A stretch of 21,181 bases of DNA, from IMG/VR virus record IMGVR_UViG_3300044451_000191, positions 1 to 21,181 of that record; one strand, given 5' to 3'. The notes beneath the pieces were generated by a model. That model was not told the origin of the DNA. It saw nothing but the letters and a program-made list of their open reading frames with translations, and did not search any database. Shown piece by piece: positions 3,435 through 16,202 of this stretch. Origin of the DNA: a virus. The position numbers and the translations under genes are program-made. Position 1 is the stretch's first letter. Each line of letters opens with the position of its first letter.

Positions 3435-4823
3435 TTACATTAAGTTGTCAACGCGTACACGACGATAGTAACGATTCGCATTAGCAAGAAGACGACCAGA
3501 TCCTTGAGTAGTACCTTCAGCGAATGGATTAGCAACCATACCATAACGAGTCTTAAATCCAATTTTTGGTTGGAAGGTATTCTCACCAACGGCACGTACC
3601 ATTTGGAGAGGAACATAAGGACAATAGAAGAGACCAGCATCATAAGGGGAAGAACCCTTATATCCTACAACGTAATACTGATTGGCAGATACGTTAGCAG
3701 CATATGGGTCAATATAAACACGATACTTACCTTGAAGAACACCAGCAAAGGTATTTCCAGTATCGTCAACATTCAAGTTAGCATTGAGTGCTGGGGTGTA
3801 ATCAAGAACACCAGCCATAGTCAGTGCTGAAGCAACATCTGCAGAGCAGAGAATCATATTGCCCTTTCCTCTACGAGTTCTTTGTGCGATTGCGTTTGCA
3901 TCGCGCTCGATTTGGAAAAGAAGACCCTTAAACTTCTCAACAGACCAACGACCATTAGAATCGACATCAAGATCAAAAATACCAGCAGTTGCAGTGTTTA
4001 CTGCAGCACCTTGCTCAGCAATCTTATAGATGGTACGAATAACTTCGCGGTTGATTTCGGCAAGAATCTCTGTTGAAAGAATATTTGCCAATTCTGCTTC
4101 AGCATTCAATCCATGAATTGCTTTCAAATCTTGTGCCAATTCTAAACTGTATTCTGCCTTGAGTGCTCTGGACTTTGCAGTCACAGTAACTTTCTCAATG
4201 CTGAATGCCATTTCATTAAACTGATCACCAGCACCGGCCCCAAGATTCTCAGCATCTCCTGTAACCATACCTTGACCAGTTGCATAGGTATTAGTTGCAG
4301 CAGTTCCTACCGGATTGAGAAGACCAGGATTAGAACCTGCAGGATTGGAAGTAGTACCGAAACCAGCAGCACCATCGGTGAAACCAGAAGTAAGATTAAA
4401 ACCAGAATCTTGACCAGCAAATGATGTATCTGCTTCGTTAAAGAGTGCTTCGGTTCCTGACTGATTAGTATAACGTGAACGCATTGCAAAAATGAGTCCA
4501 GTAGGACCATTCATTGGTTGTACACCAGCAAGGTCATATGCGACCAGATTTGGCATAGAACGACGAATGAGTGAAATTAATACTGGATCAAAACCTGCTA
4601 CAGGACCAGTAGCAGTAGCATTTCCAGAAAAACCACCAGACCCTGCGGCCATTGTTGGTGCTTCATAAAGGAATTGATTTTCTTCTCTTAAAAATTTTTC
4701 TTGGTTTTCTAACAGAACAGCGGTTACCATTTTGCGGTGCGAGTCTTTGATCGAATCAAGACCCTCATAATCAAGAAGTGGTGCCCACTTATCCTGCAGA
4801 CGTTCTCCATCGAACATTTGCAT
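3435..4823 (-). CDS. 23: Major capsid protein gp23 precursor
   Basis: This is the hexamer-forming shell protein of T4-like heads (462 aa here, 521 in T4). The strongest family signature lies at about residues 80-130: DPVLISLIRRSMPNL, GVQPMNGPTGLIFAMRSRYT and GTEALFNEAD. A tail with QMVRAVGENTFQPKIGFKTR and NPFAEG follows near the C-terminus. The first 54 residues form a charged propeptide ending in QFLYE before APTMAAGSGG. This fits the gp21 cleavage rule (Leu/Ile-x-Glu) and predicts a mature start at Ala55. ATG 4823 is preceded by AGAGG at a good distance, with a TATAAATC box about 33 bases upstream. It lies last in the head block, directly after scaffold gene 22, and is closed by a terminator. 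Confidence 0.98.
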   Translation of the reverse strand: MQMFDGERLQDKWAPLLDYEGLDSIKDSHRKMVTAVLLENQEKFLREENQFLYEAPTMAAGSGGFSGNATATGPVAGFDPVLISLIRRSMPNLVAYDLAGVQPMNGPTGLIFAMRSRYTNQSGTEALFNEADTSFAGQDSGFNLTSGFTDGAAGFGTTSNPAGSNPGLLNPVGTAATNTYATGQGMVTGDAENLGAGAGDQFNEMAFSIEKVTVTAKSRALKAEYSLELAQDLKAIHGLNAEAELANILSTEILAEINREVIRTIYKIAEQGAAVNTATAGIFDLDVDSNGRWSVEKFKGLLFQIERDANAIAQRTRRGKGNMILCSADVASALTMAGVLDYTPALNANLNVDDTGNTFAGVLQGKYRVYIDPYAANVSANQYYVVGYKGSSPYDAGLFYCPYVPLQMVRAVGENTFQPKIGFKTRYGMVANPFAEGTTQGSGRLLANANRYYRRVRVDNLM

Positions 4824-4872: not shown

Positions 4873-6105
4873 TCACTTTTTAGAAACTCGGCTCAAAGTC
4901 TGAAGATAAGATCCCATTGTTCCAGAGATATTTTCACCGTAATTCATTTCTTCAGATAATAGTTCCGAATGATCTCTTTGAGTGCTAGTATTTCTTGGGA
5001 AATAAGACTCTCTCAATGTTACTAGTTTCTCACGATAGTTTTCTTCACTTTCAAACTCAACACTTTCAGATAAGGAAGCGAGTTTATCTTTCTGTAAGGT
5101 TGATAAACCTTCAGAAATTTCACTAAAAATTACATTAGCAACCGATTCTGCTAGTCTTTGATTTAGAGCAATGTTTCTACTAATTTGCTCGTTGAGTTTT
5201 GATTCCATTTCATCAAGTTTATCTACCATACTCTCAAGTACATCATATTTTTCCTCAGGGATTGATACATAATGATCTTCAAAAAGATTCTTCATTCCTT
5301 GAAGGAATGATTCCGTCATTTCAGTTTTAATGCCTTGTTCCACAACAAGAGCATTTTCCTGTAACCATTCGTCGGCTACATACTCAAGATAAGCATCAAC
5401 TCTTTCTACAATTTGTTCTTTGATTATATTTACTTCCTCTAAAAGTTCTTCTTCATAACGATTCTCTAATGATTCGTAAATTTCAGAAATTTTAGAGTTA
5501 ATTGCTGTTTCAAAAATAAGTTTTGCTTTATCTCTAAATTCTTCTGAAAGGTCTTCACCTTCAAGAAGAGCATTTACATCCTCTTCAATGTCGATCGACT
5601 CTTTCACCTTTTTTCTTTTAGATTTACCCTCATTTTCATCATCTTCTTCATCATCATTTTCTTCATCTTCATCATCATTTTCTTCATCTTCATCATCTTC
5701 ATCTTCTTTTTTCATTTTATGATTTTCTTCCATTTTTCTATGACGAGAAGATTTTTTCTTTTCGTTTTCTTCTTCTTGATCGTATTCTTCATCCTCTTCA
5801 GTTTCTTCTTTTTTTGATCCAGAAGAAAGAGTTTGCATCGAATCGGGTGCCTTTGCTCCTTTATTTACAACATCCTTAACTTGTTTAAGTGATACTCCTG
5901 GAGTTCTAAGTTTTGAAGAATCATCATCCGAACGATAATTTTCAGGAGTAGGACCACCAAGGTCTTCCCAACTACCAGTTTGCCCAGGAGCAATACCTGT
6001 GCTTAATTTTTGCATTGGTTCTGCTGCCTGTGCGTTTGCATTTACGGCAGTTCGAGATTGGGTTGTGCCTGTTTCCATTTCTTGTAAGTTTTTACCACGG
6101 GACAT
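4873..6105 (-). CDS. 22: Prohead core scaffolding protein gp22
   Basis: The product forms the internal core on which the gp23 shell assembles and is then degraded by gp21. It is 410 aa, against about 269 in T4. Residues 1-95 are polar and disordered-looking. Residues about 99-160 are almost entirely Glu/Asp/Lys/Asn, including two perfect DEDEEND repeats. Residues about 170-360 are long charged helices likely to form coiled coils (for example LENRYEEELLEEVNIIKEQI), as expected for a scaffold. Several Leu/Ile-x-Glu sites, such as ALLEGED, could be cut by the protease. ATG 6105 has GGAGAG upstream and a perfect late box at 6142-6149. Identity rests on the helical C-terminal half and the position between genes 21 and 23; the acidic block is an expansion relative to T4. 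Confidence 0.93.
   Translation of the reverse strand: MSRGKNLQEMETGTTQSRTAVNANAQAAEPMQKLSTGIAPGQTGSWEDLGGPTPENYRSDDDSSKLRTPGVSLKQVKDVVNKGAKAPDSMQTLSSGSKKEETEEDEEYDQEEENEKKKSSRHRKMEENHKMKKEDEDDEDEENDDEDEENDDEEDDENEGKSKRKKVKESIDIEEDVNALLEGEDLSEEFRDKAKLIFETAINSKISEIYESLENRYEEELLEEVNIIKEQIVERVDAYLEYVADEWLQENALVVEQGIKTEMTESFLQGMKNLFEDHYVSIPEEKYDVLESMVDKLDEMESKLNEQISRNIALNQRLAESVANVIFSEISEGLSTLQKDKLASLSESVEFESEENYREKLVTLRESYFPRNTSTQRDHSELLSEEMNYGENISGTMGSYLQTLSRVSKK
5648..5697 (-). repeat. 21-bp tandem repeat in the acidic block of gp22
   Basis: Two perfect 21-bp copies (5648-5668 and 5669-5689) and the first eight bases of a third encode repeats of DEDEEND. The period is a multiple of three, so copy number can change without a frameshift. 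Confidence 0.85.
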
Positions 6106-6151: not shown

Positions 6152-6802
6152 TTAAATATTTGAAAGAAATTCTTTAAATAGATTAATTTTATGTTCATCG
6201 AGAATTCTTTTATCTACAAGAGTATTAATTCTCTTATATGTTTTTGTTGCTGCTTTTTCTATGAGTATTCCACCGTTCCAATACCACTCTTTTCCCTCCA
6301 TAATACCTTGAATGAAAGCATCCGGAGCAGAGGGATCTGCAACAATATCAGCAGCAGTAGCCAACATAAAATCTTCGCCAACCAAAGAATATCCATCGTT
6401 AGTTCTAATTAATGAACCCACACCACGAGATGAAACTCCAAGTGTTACACCTTCACCAATTAATGATTGAGCAATTTTACCCATTGGTGTAGAAAGAAGT
6501 TGTGCTTTTCCTCTAAAATTATTTCCTTCACGAACTAATGAAATGATTTTATGAGAAACACGATCAAGATTTACTGTTGGGCCATCTGGATGTCCCAATT
6601 CTCCAAGAGCACGACCTTTACAAATAAAATTTTCATTATAACGAGCAACTTCTCTTTCCAGTGTCTTCATTTCATAAAGTCTTTTATTTCTATTTGGAAG
6701 ATTTGCTTGAAGAAAAACTCCTTCAATAAACATTTTTTTAGCAGCACCTCTTCCTTCAGTTATAAATTTGACTTTTTGTGCTTCTTCTGTGATGAGTTTC
6801 AT
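6152..6802 (-). CDS. 21: Prohead maturation protease gp21
   Basis: This serine protease of the herpesvirus-assemblin-like fold sits in the prohead core and cuts gp23, gp22 and internal proteins after Leu/Ile-x-Glu. The likely catalytic His lies in GELGHPDGP (His71) and the likely catalytic Ser in GVSSRGVGSL (Ser124 or Ser125); His84 in RVSHKI may be the third residue. I start it at ATG 6802, which gives 216 aa, close to the 212 of T4 gp21. That ATG lies four bases after the preceding stop. The frame extends 12 codons upstream to a TTG at 6838, but that would overlap the neighbour by 32 bases. It ends just before the late promoter of gene 22. Confidence 0.95.
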   Translation of the reverse strand: MKLITEEAQKVKFITEGRGAAKKMFIEGVFLQANLPNRNKRLYEMKTLEREVARYNENFICKGRALGELGHPDGPTVNLDRVSHKIISLVREGNNFRGKAQLLSTPMGKIAQSLIGEGVTLGVSSRGVGSLIRTNDGYSLVGEDFMLATAADIVADPSAPDAFIQGIMEGKEWYWNGGILIEKAATKTYKRINTLVDKRILDEHKINLFKEFLSNI

Positions 6803-6806
6803 TTTC

Positions 6807-7352
6807 TTATGCCTGTGATGCGATTTGAACTTCTGCAATATGCAAATGTGTATTATTTGACTCTCCGTATCCTTCTACCTTTACACATCTAGATACAGTT
6901 GCATTTGTAACTGTAATCACTCCAACAATTGAACTAGTATTTGCATCAACAATCATTGAATTTTCATTTGGATTAATACTTGATACTAATACAAATGAAG
7001 TATTCAACCCAGATGGTTGAGCTGAGAGAATACTTATTCTATCTCCAACAGAAAAAGGAACTCCTGTATTTTCATTAAAAGTAATTGTAGTACTAGTACC
7101 AGTTGTGATACCTAATATTTTTTGCCTAGCAACTCTAAATTTTAAAATTTCACTCGTATTTTGTGGTATTAAAAAACTACTTTCACTATTTGCGATTCCA
7201 GTGTTTATACCTTCTACTACATGAACTTGAATGTTTCCGCCAGAAGCAGTTAATCTTAAATAACCAGATTGTAAATTAATTACTCCACTTGTAGCAATTC
7301 CATTATTTGGAGGTGCTATTGCAGTAATATTTTGTACAATTTTTAAAGCCAT
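6807..7352 (-). CDS. Conserved structural protein between gp67 and gp21, possible head decoration protein
   Basis: The 181-residue product starts with ALKIVQNITAIAPPNNGI and is beta-rich and non-membrane. I recall similar N-termini in marine T4-like phages at this locus, but no assigned function. Residues about 1-75 and 155-181 (VSRCVKVEGYGESNNTHLHI) look like the conserved core. Residues about 79-155, rich in Thr/Ser/Gly/Ile, look like an inserted small beta domain (PFSVGDRISILSAQ). The ATG overlaps the gp67 stop as TAATG, with GAGG seven bases before it, so translation is probably coupled. Location inside the head operon suggests a capsid-surface or head-stabilising role; this is inference. 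Confidence 0.75.
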   Translation of the reverse strand: MALKIVQNITAIAPPNNGIATSGVINLQSGYLRLTASGGNIQVHVVEGINTGIANSESSFLIPQNTSEILKFRVARQKILGITTGTSTTITFNENTGVPFSVGDRISILSAQPSGLNTSFVLVSSINPNENSMIVDANTSSIVGVITVTNATVSRCVKVEGYGESNNTHLHIAEVQIASQA

Positions 7353-12438: not shown

Positions 12439-14088
12439 TTATCTATATTCCCACATATATGATACATCACCATATTCATCAGTAAACCACCTGTCTCCAT
12501 TATTATCCACAAATGTTTTTTCGTTTTCAATTCCATCAACAATAAATCCAAATGGGGACATATCTTGCTCTATTTGTTCTTTTTGTTCTTCGTATATTCT
12601 TTTACGAACATCATTCTCAGTCATTTCTTTGAAATACTCTTGAACAATCAACCAAGAAAAGATAACTAAACACATTACCAAGTCATCATTACAACCTTCT
12701 TCTGCTTCAAACGATTGATTTTTTTGAATAAATGTTGTGAGTTCACTAATAATTTCATAATCATTAAAAACTAATTTATCATCTTCGATAATGGTTTTTA
12801 AATTTGAACATCCAACTCTTTTTACAGTTTTAGACATTTTAACTCCCAATTGAGTTTTTTTCCCAGAAAACCCTTGCCCAACAAGTTGTCCTGCTCTTCC
12901 TCTCATTGCACACATTAGAATATTATCATACTCTAAATCAAAATGAAGAATACTTGTAACTTGTTCTCCTATATCATTTACTTCTGCTAGTACAAATGAT
13001 TTGTTATATGCCTTTGCTACATCCATAATTATATTTGGAAATAGTATTGGCTTAACTTCATTATTTCTATATTTTGCTACTATTTTATAAGGAAATGATG
13101 TTATATCGAAAACAACAAATGCAGAGTAATCGTTATTTAATCCTCTTGATACATCTACTGTCATTATATAAGTATGTTCTTCTTTTGGTTCTTCATATAC
13201 ATCTAAACCAGCACTTTTTTTGATTGGTTCATCATAAACTAAAGTTTTTATTTTTGCTGGATTAATTAAAGTTCCAACAGAACCCAAAAATTCACATAAA
13301 AATTCTACAGCAAATTGTTGCTCACTTGTATTTTCAATTGTTTGTTTTTTCCACAATTCATCTCTCCCTGGAACTTCAGTCCAATGAACTTCGGTTGGAA
13401 TATATTGATTTTTTCCTCTTTCTGCATCGTGCCAAATTTTATAAAAATGGTTCATTCCGTGAGGAGTAGAAACAATAATCAATTTAGTTGATTTTCCGGA
13501 TGATATTGTTGGATAAACAGAACTGAAAAATTCATCAGCAATGTGATTTGGAACGAAGGCAAATTCGTCCAAAAATATAATATTGTAAGATCCACCACGA
13601 ACGGCAGATGCTGATGTAGATGCTGCTATAATTTTTGATCCATTTTCTAATTCTAATGAACCTTTATTCCATATCAGAACACCTTGCTGCATCCATTTAG
13701 GAAGATTTTCGTATGCTAATTGAAGTCTTCCAAGAAGGTCTCTAGCAGTAGACGCTTTATTAGCAAGAATCGCAATATTGACGTTATCATTAAATATTGC
13801 GTAATGAAGCAAATAAGCAACGACAGTGGTAGATTTGCCAGATTGCCGTGGCATTTTGCAGACGTTAAATCTGTTATCATGGAAGTTCCTAATAAGTTTT
13901 TCTTGAAACTTATACATCTTGAAAGGCACAAGACCATGATCAAGAGAAACAATTTTTATATAGTTTTTTGCAAAGTATACTGGATCTTTTTTGCATTTTA
14001 TAAATTGTTCAATATGTTCCTTACTAAATTCTATCGGCGTATTAGCCTTTTTTAGTAATGGATTGCTCAGATATTGATCTATACTCAT
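12439..14088 (-). CDS. 17: Large terminase subunit gp17 (packaging ATPase and nuclease)
   Basis: gp17 is the motor that pumps DNA through the portal and cuts the concatemer. The ATPase domain shows the adenine/arginine-finger region, Walker A MPRQSGKST (79-87, Lys85), Walker B IIFLDEF (170-176, Asp174 and catalytic Glu175) and the coupling motif VSTPHG (206-211). The nuclease domain shows the three acidic groups of the RNase H-like fold: Asp312 in TVDVSRG, Glu369 in LAEVND and Asp468/Asp469 in GCNDDLVM. All expected catalytic residues are present in 549 aa (610 in T4). ATG 14088 follows the 61-residue ORF after five bases. No clear Shine-Dalgarno sequence precedes it, so translation may be coupled to the upstream ORF. 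Unlike T4, two ORFs separate it from gene 16. Confidence 0.98.
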   Translation of the reverse strand: MSIDQYLSNPLLKKANTPIEFSKEHIEQFIKCKKDPVYFAKNYIKIVSLDHGLVPFKMYKFQEKLIRNFHDNRFNVCKMPRQSGKSTTVVAYLLHYAIFNDNVNIAILANKASTARDLLGRLQLAYENLPKWMQQGVLIWNKGSLELENGSKIIAASTSASAVRGGSYNIIFLDEFAFVPNHIADEFFSSVYPTISSGKSTKLIIVSTPHGMNHFYKIWHDAERGKNQYIPTEVHWTEVPGRDELWKKQTIENTSEQQFAVEFLCEFLGSVGTLINPAKIKTLVYDEPIKKSAGLDVYEEPKEEHTYIMTVDVSRGLNNDYSAFVVFDITSFPYKIVAKYRNNEVKPILFPNIIMDVAKAYNKSFVLAEVNDIGEQVTSILHFDLEYDNILMCAMRGRAGQLVGQGFSGKKTQLGVKMSKTVKRVGCSNLKTIIEDDKLVFNDYEIISELTTFIQKNQSFEAEEGCNDDLVMCLVIFSWLIVQEYFKEMTENDVRKRIYEEQKEQIEQDMSPFGFIVDGIENEKTFVDNNGDRWFTDEYGDVSYMWEYR

Positions 14089-14093
14089 ATTTA

Positions 14094-14279
14094 TTACATC
14101 TTAAACTCATCTAAACCAATTATTTTTAATGTCTCTTGTTGCTTAAAATATAATTTTACATAACACTTACATATATTTTTCAGATATTCAATATTTTCGC
14201 AATTATCTAAATCTCTTGATAATTTTTCATATTCAAATATTTTATTTAAATTTTCTAATTCGATAAGATTTGGGTCCAT
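14094..14279 (-). CDS. Small conserved protein between gp16 and gp17, function unknown (61 aa)
   Basis: I place the start at ATG 14279, because AGGAG lies eight bases before it. The frame also opens at ATG 14351, but that start has no ribosome site and would add 72 more bases of overlap with the previous gene. The protein begins MDPNLIELENLNKIFEYEKL and is a charged helical chain with a Cys pair in NICKCYVKLYFKQQ; there is no signal peptide or membrane segment. The start overlaps the end of the 504-residue ORF by 38 bases, and the stop lies five bases before gp17, so it probably serves translational coupling as well as coding. I recall similar small ORFs next to the terminase of marine T4-like phages but no known function. 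Confidence 0.75.
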   Translation of the reverse strand: MDPNLIELENLNKIFEYEKLSRDLDNCENIEYLKNICKCYVKLYFKQQETLKIIGLDEFKM

Positions 14280-15756
14280 TTGTTTCTCCTGTAAATAATA
14301 GTGGTTTATTTGGATCATTTGTGGTAGGATTGAATGAAAGTATAATTGCATCTGGATATACTTTTCTAATTTCTCTAGTCACTTCACTTTTTGTTGGTCT
14401 ATTAAATTGTTGAAAAAACATTTGTGTTGTAATATATTTACCTCTCCAATTAAGAAGTATAGTATATGTAGATCCACGAGATTGTATTCGTAAATAGTTT
14501 TCTTCAATATTCATCTCTTCATTTTTTGTACTATTTCCCCAATTATCAGCACCAACTCTACGGCACTTTACAAGTGCGCCAGAGGCATAGGCAGAAGGCC
14601 AAACTCTATAACGAGACTTTACTTTATGATAACAGGCATCTTTTGTTCCACTACCTTTACCTTTTTTATCTTTTGCCTCTTGAATTTCCATTGTTTCTTT
14701 TAATCCTGGTTCTGGTTTTACATAATCTTTGCTCTTTCTTCCTTTAGCAAAGGTTGGAACATTCGTTGGTTTTGCTGCTTTAGACTTTTGTGGTTGTTTC
14801 GAATCTTTTTGACGTTTACGACGAATAGCGGATTGAATTATAGATTCTCCTCTTTTGCCTTTTCTTTTTAATGCAGCAAGTCTTGCACTACTAAAACATT
14901 TTGGAGTTTTTGTTTCTCCAGGTTCATTTGCACATGGAGAACCATCTGCCTGAACCCATCCTTTTACTCTTTTTCCAGATTTAGTTATTCCACTAGAACC
15001 TTGAAACCAATGATGAAGAGAACCTGCCTCATCAATATTCACATCTTTAGATTTGGACTTACCAAACCAGTCACGAAGACCTTCTTCATTCATTTCTTTT
15101 GTTTTCTCTTTCATAGAATTAATAAATTTTCTATAAATTGCTGCCTCCGATGTTTTTCCAGCTGCTTTTGCTCTCTGTTCCATGGCAATTGCTGCTTGCA
15201 TTTTGTGAGCATGAGATCTTTTAGAATTTTTTATTTTGGAAATACTTTCTTTTGCAGTTTGAACATCTTTAAATCCAAGTCCATGAATAGTTCCTTTTGG
15301 GTTTTCATCAGTGTATAAATCAGAGTGTTTTTTAGATCTTGCTGGTTGTCCAGGTTTTCTTGGAATTCTTGGGTTATTTACTTCAACTTCTTCTACTTTT
15401 ACGCAGTTTGGATATTTTTTACCAAACATTTTTTTCATACCTTTTTTCTTATAACCTTTCCAACAAGCTTCTCCAATTTCTTGACTATCGACATAATCAG
15501 CAGCAGTATCAATATAATCTGCTGCTTTAGTGATTTTAGATTGCACCCAAGCTTTGATATTTCCTTCACCTTCCATTTTTTTACGAAGTCTTTTTGCGGC
15601 ATTTGAAATTATAGATAATTCCGAACGAGCCATAGAGTGTTCATGATCTTCTGTGGTATTACAATCTTTAGTCCCATGAGTAGGACAATATTTTCCTTTT
15701 ATTGTTTTATTACATGTAGAACTTGCTTCTTCTATAAATTCTTTAAAATTTTTCAT
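14242..15756 (-). CDS. Large basic protein with T4 internal-protein-like capsid targeting sequence
   Basis: I do not recognise a named family. The 504-residue product starts with MKNFKEFIEEA, which matches the capsid targeting peptide of T4 internal proteins (MKTYQEFIAEA in IPII and IPIII); gp21 would cut after Glu10. The rest is very rich in Lys/Arg and modular. Residues 15-40 hold a Cys/His cluster. Residues 42-92 are helical (AAKRLRKKMEGEGNIKAWVQ, KAADYIDTAADYVDS). Residues 96-120 have GYKKKGMKKMFGKKYPNC. Residues 178-212 contain SHAHKMQAAIAMEQRAKAAG. Residues 225-290 have LRDWFGKSKS and WVQADGSPC. Residues 366-407 have GSGTKDACYHKVKSRYRVWP and SGALVKCRR. A distinct domain, 420-504, ends the chain. 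Several of these modules are familiar from marine phage proteins of unknown role. It lies between the terminase genes; ATG 15756 lacks a good ribosome site. Confidence 0.85.
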   Translation of the reverse strand: MKNFKEFIEEASSTCNKTIKGKYCPTHGTKDCNTTEDHEHSMARSELSIISNAAKRLRKKMEGEGNIKAWVQSKITKAADYIDTAADYVDSQEIGEACWKGYKKKGMKKMFGKKYPNCVKVEEVEVNNPRIPRKPGQPARSKKHSDLYTDENPKGTIHGLGFKDVQTAKESISKIKNSKRSHAHKMQAAIAMEQRAKAAGKTSEAAIYRKFINSMKEKTKEMNEEGLRDWFGKSKSKDVNIDEAGSLHHWFQGSSGITKSGKRVKGWVQADGSPCANEPGETKTPKCFSSARLAALKRKGKRGESIIQSAIRRKRQKDSKQPQKSKAAKPTNVPTFAKGRKSKDYVKPEPGLKETMEIQEAKDKKGKGSGTKDACYHKVKSRYRVWPSAYASGALVKCRRVGADNWGNSTKNEEMNIEENYLRIQSRGSTYTILLNWRGKYITTQMFFQQFNRPTKSEVTREIRKVYPDAIILSFNPTTNDPNKPLLFTGETNGPKSYRIRKFK

Positions 15757-15770
15757 AAGAATTTTTTTAA

Positions 15771-16202
15771 TTATTTAGAAATATCTTCTGGACTTAATCC
15801 AGTCTTAAGAAGTTTTTGTAATTCTGCAGTGGATCCAACAAAAAGCGCATTTGTAACATTCTTTGGTCCAGTTTTTTCTTCTTTTTTAAGTTCTTTTACT
15901 TTTTGATGAATATCCATCAATTTATCCGTAGAATCTGCAACACTTTTAATCAATTGTCCGAATACCTCATACGCTCTAGGTTGTTGTCCATCCTGTGCAA
16001 GTTCCAACAAACTTGTTGCTGCTTCTTGTCCTTTTTCAATTAAATTATAAAGGGTTCCACGAATATAATCATAATCCAACTCCGAGTGATCTTTATTTTT
16101 AATATTCTTTAATTCTTTTTTTGATTTCTTAATAATTTCTTTTGCAGTAATAGTTGCCTTAATATCTAAGGTTTCATCTATTTTGTCAAAATTATTTTTC
16201 AT
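15771..16202 (-). CDS. 16: Small terminase subunit gp16
   Basis: gp16 recognises the phage DNA and regulates the gp17 motor as an oligomeric ring. The 143-residue product (164 in T4) is helical and charged. The central segment is typical: DYDYIRGTLYNLIEKGQEA at about residue 44, SLLELAQDGQQPRAYEVFGQ near 65 and LIKSVADSTDKLMDIHQKVK near 86, the likely oligomerisation coiled coil. The ATG overlaps the gp15 stop as ATGA, and AAAGG lies nine to ten bases upstream inside gp15, indicating translational coupling. Position after gp15 and upstream of gp17 agrees with the T4 order. Confidence 0.93.
   Translation of the reverse strand: MKNNFDKIDETLDIKATITAKEIIKKSKKELKNIKNKDHSELDYDYIRGTLYNLIEKGQEAATSLLELAQDGQQPRAYEVFGQLIKSVADSTDKLMDIHQKVKELKKEEKTGPKNVTNALFVGSTAELQKLLKTGLSPEDISK
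15772..15778 (-). promoter_or_regulatory. Variant late promoter (CTAAATA) before the 504-residue ORF
   Basis: CTAAATA overlaps the gp16 stop codon, 16 bases before the ATG at 15756; with the preceding T it matches seven of eight bases of the T4 late box. The AAAAAAATTCTT leader has no Shine-Dalgarno sequence. Confidence 0.4.

Follow-up and report, generated by a model that had tools for sequence, protein, structure and literature searches.

A putative T4-type capsid targeting leader on a mosaic basic protein and on other proteins of marine T4-like phages

Internal proteins of T4 and the leader of the window protein

The internal proteins (IPs) of phage T4 open with a capsid targeting sequence (CTS), in which residues 4 and 7 serve targeting and residues 8 and 10 serve processing; the IPs are not conserved among T4-like phages (PMC9026906). 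In published T4 work, the prohead protease gp21 cuts after L/I-x-E. IPII and IPIII open with MKTYQEFIAEA and IPI with MKTFKEF, as read from AF158101. The head-carried ADP-ribosyltransferase Alt has an N-terminus (MELITELFDED) that fits a relaxed form of the leader pattern, and is cut near its C-terminus as well (PMC9026906). The leader is thus already known in T4. Our survey of the open-access literature found no paper tying a capsid targeting sequence to cyanophages beyond one T4 review. Within that literature, the leader as a general cargo tag of cyanophages appears to be new, as does its presence on a core cytidylyltransferase, on other virion enzymes and on a shuffled module protein.

The window, the whole stretch of 21,181 nucleotides analysed here, is a block of late genes from a marine T4-like phage. 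Its minus strand encodes, in order, gp13, gp14, gp15, gp16, the ORF 14242-15756(-), a small ORF, gp17, gp18, gp19 and gp20, followed by a gp67-like acidic protein, a DUF7243 protein, gp21, gp22 and gp23 (Table 1); gp13, gp14, gp18 and gp19 were assigned from position and S-SM2 homology. Because gp23 and gp17 are nearest to those of Kyanoviridae cyanophages (82% and 78% identity, respectively), the phage is, judged by these identities, a member of the Kyanoviridae or a near relative. The DUF7243 protein (6807-7352(-)) sits between the gp67-like ORF and gp21.

Table 1. Features of the window and of its 504-residue basic protein (a slash marks a cleavage site, here and in the text)
Feature	Position	Strand	Remarks
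504-aa basic mosaic protein, T4-GC119 / phrog_727 family, between gp16 and gp17	14242..15756	(-)	phrog_727, E=8e-63
CTS-like leader, residues 1-10, MKNFKEFIEE	15727..15756	(-)	predicted gp21 cut E10/A11
Cys/His-rich segment CNKTIKGKYCPTHGTKDC, residues 14-33	15658..15717	(-)	similar segment behind the leader in L476
Module HEHSMARS, residues 35-93	15478..15654	(-)	
Module CWKGYKKKG, residues 97-124	15385..15468	(-)	IGE/A before it at 96/97
Module NPRIPRKPGQP...KSEAAIYRKFINSMKEK, residues 125-225	15082..15384	(-)	
Modules GLRDWF / SLHHWF, residues 226-345	14722..15081	(-)	IDE/A at 243/244
Module DACYHKVKSRY, residues 366-415	14512..14661	(-)	IQE/A before it at 360/361
C-terminal module M6, residues 418-504	14245..14505	(-)	predicted beta-beta-alpha-beta core; near IEE/N 419/420
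gp16 small terminase, upstream neighbour of the ORF	15771..16202	(-)	
gp17 large terminase, downstream neighbour of the ORF	12439..14088	(-)	
gp21 prohead protease (Peptidase_S77), presumed processing enzyme	6152..6802	(-)	5e-34
gp22 scaffold (T4_CASP), presumed leader receptor in the prohead core	4873..6105	(-)	6e-76
gp23 major capsid protein	3435..4823	(-)	FLYE/AP aligns with the T4 gp23 cleavage site FLTE/AE

The 504-codon ORF starts 14 nt after the gp16 stop. Its translation opens with MKNFKEFIEEASSTCNK, and the N-terminal stretch of the protein reads MKNFKEFIEEASST. The initial annotation had aligned the first residues to IPII and IPIII without gaps and placed the cut site at the same position, and both points hold: MKNFKEFIEE/A shares 7/11 identities with the T4 leader, with I8, E10 and A11 in register as in IPII/IPIII. 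The four residues with a mapped function in T4 are all present (F4, F7, I8 and E10), followed by A11. The leaders of the close relatives read MKNFKEFIEEA, MKSFKQFVVET, MKSFRQFVLET and MKNFKEFIDET, in which M1, K2, F4, F7 and E10 are invariant. The strongly basic remainder described in that annotation is likewise confirmed, as the protein has a pI of 9.9 with 75 K + 30 R vs 20 D + 36 E, and its downstream modules mostly have a pI of 9.6-10.8; the first predicted fragment is near neutral.

Similar to the T4 IPs, the window protein combines an N-terminal MKT[FY]xEF-type leader and a gp21-type site with a basic body, and gp21 and gp22 are encoded alongside it. By contrast, it is a 57 kDa module mosaic, compared to the small single-domain IPs (8-20 kDa), and its gene is placed between gp16 and gp17. 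It resembles Alt in being large, but is without a detected enzymatic domain. Residues 1-10 are very likely a working T4-type CTS, by which the window protein would be drawn into the prohead core and trimmed, the basic rest being kept with the DNA. Packaging and trimming are very likely, and we infer that the basic part associates with DNA. By analogy with T4 IPI and Alt, the protein might also be ejected with the genome and might have an anti-defence role; it would then be a candidate host-takeover factor as well, as the initial annotation proposed.

The GC119 family between gp16 and gp17

The window protein belongs to phrog_727 and is the counterpart of S-SM2 T4-GC119 (SSM2_109), which also lies between gp16 and gp17. 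It shares family and locus with GC119 proteins but differs in module order, and most members either are leaderless or have the leader on an abutting small upstream gene. Among 91 GC119-type loci, the leader heads the GC119 protein itself in about 5 and the abutting upstream ORF in about 20, and is absent from both in the rest; these counts exclude three false MKKYCRLC 'own CTS' rows and one upstream row (L139) that is a GC190 gene. In most cases, the tagged upstream ORF runs four bases into the start of GC119, and in S-SM2 and Bellamy it is this neighbouring gene that supplies the leader. The tagged upstream protein of S-SM2, SSM2_108 (L002 5573-6001), reads MKTLKQFLKE/TPTNSVGNGGYTSAGGQ, and after Glu10 it resembles gp23 just past its predicted cleavage site, MIAE/QPTNAVGNGGYTSSGGQ; this likeness places the cut after Glu10 independently. 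L171, L174, L210, L217 and L438 likewise have a gene that overlaps the GC119 start by four bases and in which the leader precedes a stretch like the N-terminus of mature gp23.

Two relatives bear on how these proteins reach the virion. In the annotation of S-SM2, 18 genes, nearly all of them known virion parts, carry the note 'similar to Synechococcus phage S-SM1 protein', and the noted set covers the clusters that S-SM2 has in common with the virion proteins of S-SM1 named in the paper (PMC3037559). Since S-SM2 GC119 bears this note, typical of virion genes, GC119 was apparently detected in S-SM1 virions, as far as the record notes indicate. S-CREM2 ORF137, which occupies the gp16-gp17 slot, shares module M6 with the window protein (27% over 66 aa, E=1e-6) and, like S-SM2 GC119, has DUF6321; it is in the S-CREM2 virion list with four peptides (PMC10665884). 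Both S-CREM2 ORF137 and S-SM1 GC119 are without leader yet apparently in virions, so family members can enter without it. The initial annotation had named homologues lacking the first ten residues as grounds for refutation, and this counts in part against it: most GC119 relatives are leaderless, and the leader is not the sole entry route of the family.

These leaderless virion proteins, together with the location of the gene among head, neck and packaging genes, would fit a window protein that is a structural part of the head or neck, entering via other virion parts and bearing the leader as a dispensable add-on. We consider this unlikely: leader residues 1, 2, 4, 7 and 10 are kept although the segment directly after them is exchanged in one close relative, the upstream neighbour supplies the leader in S-SM2 and Bellamy, and the GC119 proteins are mosaics with 61 module orders in 84 distinct ORFs, a degree of shuffling unusual for a fixed structural part. 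Even less probable is an unpackaged protein that aids terminase DNA packaging in the infected cell. Synteny with gp16 and gp17 and the strongly basic character agree with such a helper; however, the gp16-gp17 interval is known as a variable-gene hot spot (PMC3037559), two family members are in virion lists (that of S-SM1 by the inference above), and S-SM2 GC119 bears the virion note, whereas gp16 and gp17 do not.

Leader-tagged proteins in genomes and virions

The cyanophage-core cytidylyltransferase T4-GC190 resembles the window protein in its leader form, MKxFxxFLxEA, but its body is an enzyme domain unrelated to the basic modules of the latter. It was detected in S-SM1 virions (PMC3037559), and the cytidylyltransferase was also detected by mass spectrometry in S-CREM2, making it a virion protein in two phages. 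The leader (MKKFSAFLNEA in S-SM1) is of the MKSFFQFLxEA type and nearly universal in the family. Leader frequencies from a first locus scan, which had MKNFKEFI among its baits, are biased upwards; 64 GC190 loci were fetched by internal peptides instead. In these loci, positions 1, 2, 7, 8 and 10 are invariant, position 4 is F or L, position 9 is free and position 11 is A in 63; on this alignment, the conserved positions match those mapped in T4. At one locus (L482 6113-7393(-)), a leader-tagged fusion links a cytidylyltransferase domain to a zeta-toxin-like P-loop kinase.

The strongest independent test of the leader pattern is the virion proteome of S-CREM2 (PMC10665884 Table 3; genome OR473000). 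Searching the whole genome in six frames with the relaxed pattern gave four matches, all of which are starts of virion proteins detected by mass spectrometry: the SAM hydrolase (MKDFDSFLEE), the cytidylyltransferase (MKNFSSFLTEA), ORF13 (MKDLHSFLTEQ, a single-peptide detection) and ORF136 (MQTFSMFFSED), which sits in the gp16-gp17 slot as does the window protein. The probability of this outcome is about 0.003 given 52/219 proteins detected, and about 0.0004 among non-structural proteins (28/195 detected). The virion kinase ORF14 opens with MKRFDAFLTEE from its annotated start and is absent from the ATG-scan matches; counting it gives 6e-4 and 4e-5. The virion Cas9 (ORF12, L597 7704-10313(-)) has a leader-like element, LRFASFMAEA, some way in from the N-terminus, near residue 20; Cas9 and ORF14 were spotted after viewing the virion list and carry lower weight. 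The family matched by the SAM hydrolase is that of the S-AdoMet lyases, and anti-restriction activity is known from this class. Such activity is also argued in the S-CREM2 paper (PMC10665884).

A null model of position-specific frequencies gave per-gene probabilities of 1.7e-7 for the exact form MKx[FY]xxFIxEA and 1.1e-4 for the relaxed strict form. The initial annotation had suggested a pattern search of other marine T4-like phages; in eight such genomes, 12 of 1444 gene-like ORFs have strict leader starts, against 0.155 expected, and internal Met codons fit the pattern once per about 6045. DNA encoding MKxFxxFIxEA in viral contigs yielded 83 matches in 80 loci kept. All 83 have an in-frame stop or contig end at most 27 codons upstream, so the pattern behaves as a gene-start signal, and 82/83 stay open for at least 30 codons. 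Other T4-core genes are also encoded on 60/80 of these DNA pieces. As a positive control, the relaxed pattern in six frames of T4 recovered IPII, IPIII, gp24, Alt and gp61.1 plus two unannotated ORFs; the first four are known gp21 substrates in T4. The hypothetical protein gp61.1 (54 aa; AF158101 18966-19130(-)) opens with MKTFKEFIKED, a strict leader match, and is a candidate unrecognised T4 internal protein. Although the motif is short, at ten residues, chance resemblance of the window leader to that of T4 is rejected as extremely improbable by three independent nulls. The exact-form probability, the 83/83 matches at gene starts and the S-CREM2 matches, all in the virion list, speak against it.

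Sequence and statistics together uphold the identification of the window leader as a T4-type CTS. In the mechanism we propose, the leader would draw the newly made protein into the gp22-based prohead core, where gp21 would cut after Glu10 (I-x-E/A) and perhaps also between modules; the basic remainder would stay in the head with the DNA and exit with it. The leader probably marks cargo packed with the genome. It would act as a portable tag on many late cargo proteins of marine T4-like phages, including a cytidylyltransferase, a SAM hydrolase, a kinase and small Cys/His-rich and basic proteins, and the window protein would be one such cargo, put together from small basic modules through fusion and shuffling. 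Cyanophage virions hold enzymes and hypothetical proteins with an unexplained entry route, for which the leader offers a simple rule. With it, the proteins packaged by an abundant family of ocean viruses could be predicted from sequence and checked through N-terminal peptides. The leader also suggests a tag for packaging in cyanophages, comparable to the use of the T4 tag in T4.

Modules of the window protein and other tagged proteins

The [IL]xE motif of the window protein occurs at module borders (10/11, 96/97, 243/244, 360/361 and 419/420), with an extra LKE at 354, six residues ahead of the 360 site. Across the family, [ILMV]xE accounts for 44% of Glu just upstream of modules vs 23% of other Glu. 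For the gp21 motif followed by A/G at P1', the odds ratio at joints is 4.4, with p-values that are optimistic because the sequences are related, which inflates significance. Internal leader copies inside GC119 proteins number three, too few to count. Some modules are found alone behind a leader, namely DUF6321 (L489) and CxxGxYxC (L525, L514), and a tagged ORF of L527 has a GNKSGD segment like that ahead of the LRDWF module.

Searches of the window protein against Pfam, NCBIfam and PDB sequences gave no function (two sub-threshold Pfam matches were ignored), and a phmmer search of PDB chains returned no match at E<=1, so that no likeness to the mature part of the T4 IPs emerged from it. The predicted fold of M6, whose core has a pLDDT of about 90, matched no PDB entry with E <0.001. 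Processing of the window protein into several pieces is plausible. We put forward only tentatively, as somewhat doubtful, that it is a head-delivered polyprotein, with one leader taking a series of small basic and Cys/His-rich modules into the prohead, gp21 cuts at [IL]xE sites between them and the pieces acting as separate effectors in the next host. If so, tagged modules would be shuffled, fused and split, and the gene slot would be a changeable injected arsenal.

Among the other leader-tagged proteins, three small ones (L527 1085-1591, L477 3736-4149 and L491 1211-1858) have a YHGT...GF...YxTPS pattern; an assignment of this family as an ADP-ribosyltransferase like T4 Alt was dropped, Pfam being silent and the model pLDDT 32. 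Contig pieces L527, L477 and L520 each have two tagged genes, in tandem with a one-base overlap in L527 and L477, which suggests cassettes of packaged proteins. Two tagged proteins of the L467-L544 set match DUF5872 weakly; an algal giant virus has DUF5872 listed as well (PMC12085832). In S-SM2, the tagged 193-aa protein SSM2_065 (L083 49522-50000), MKTLGQFLAEAYDKDVMGSSQIRR, adjoins a gene annotated as a restriction enzyme, and similar tagged basic proteins are found at L467, L471, L473, L479, L492 and L536.
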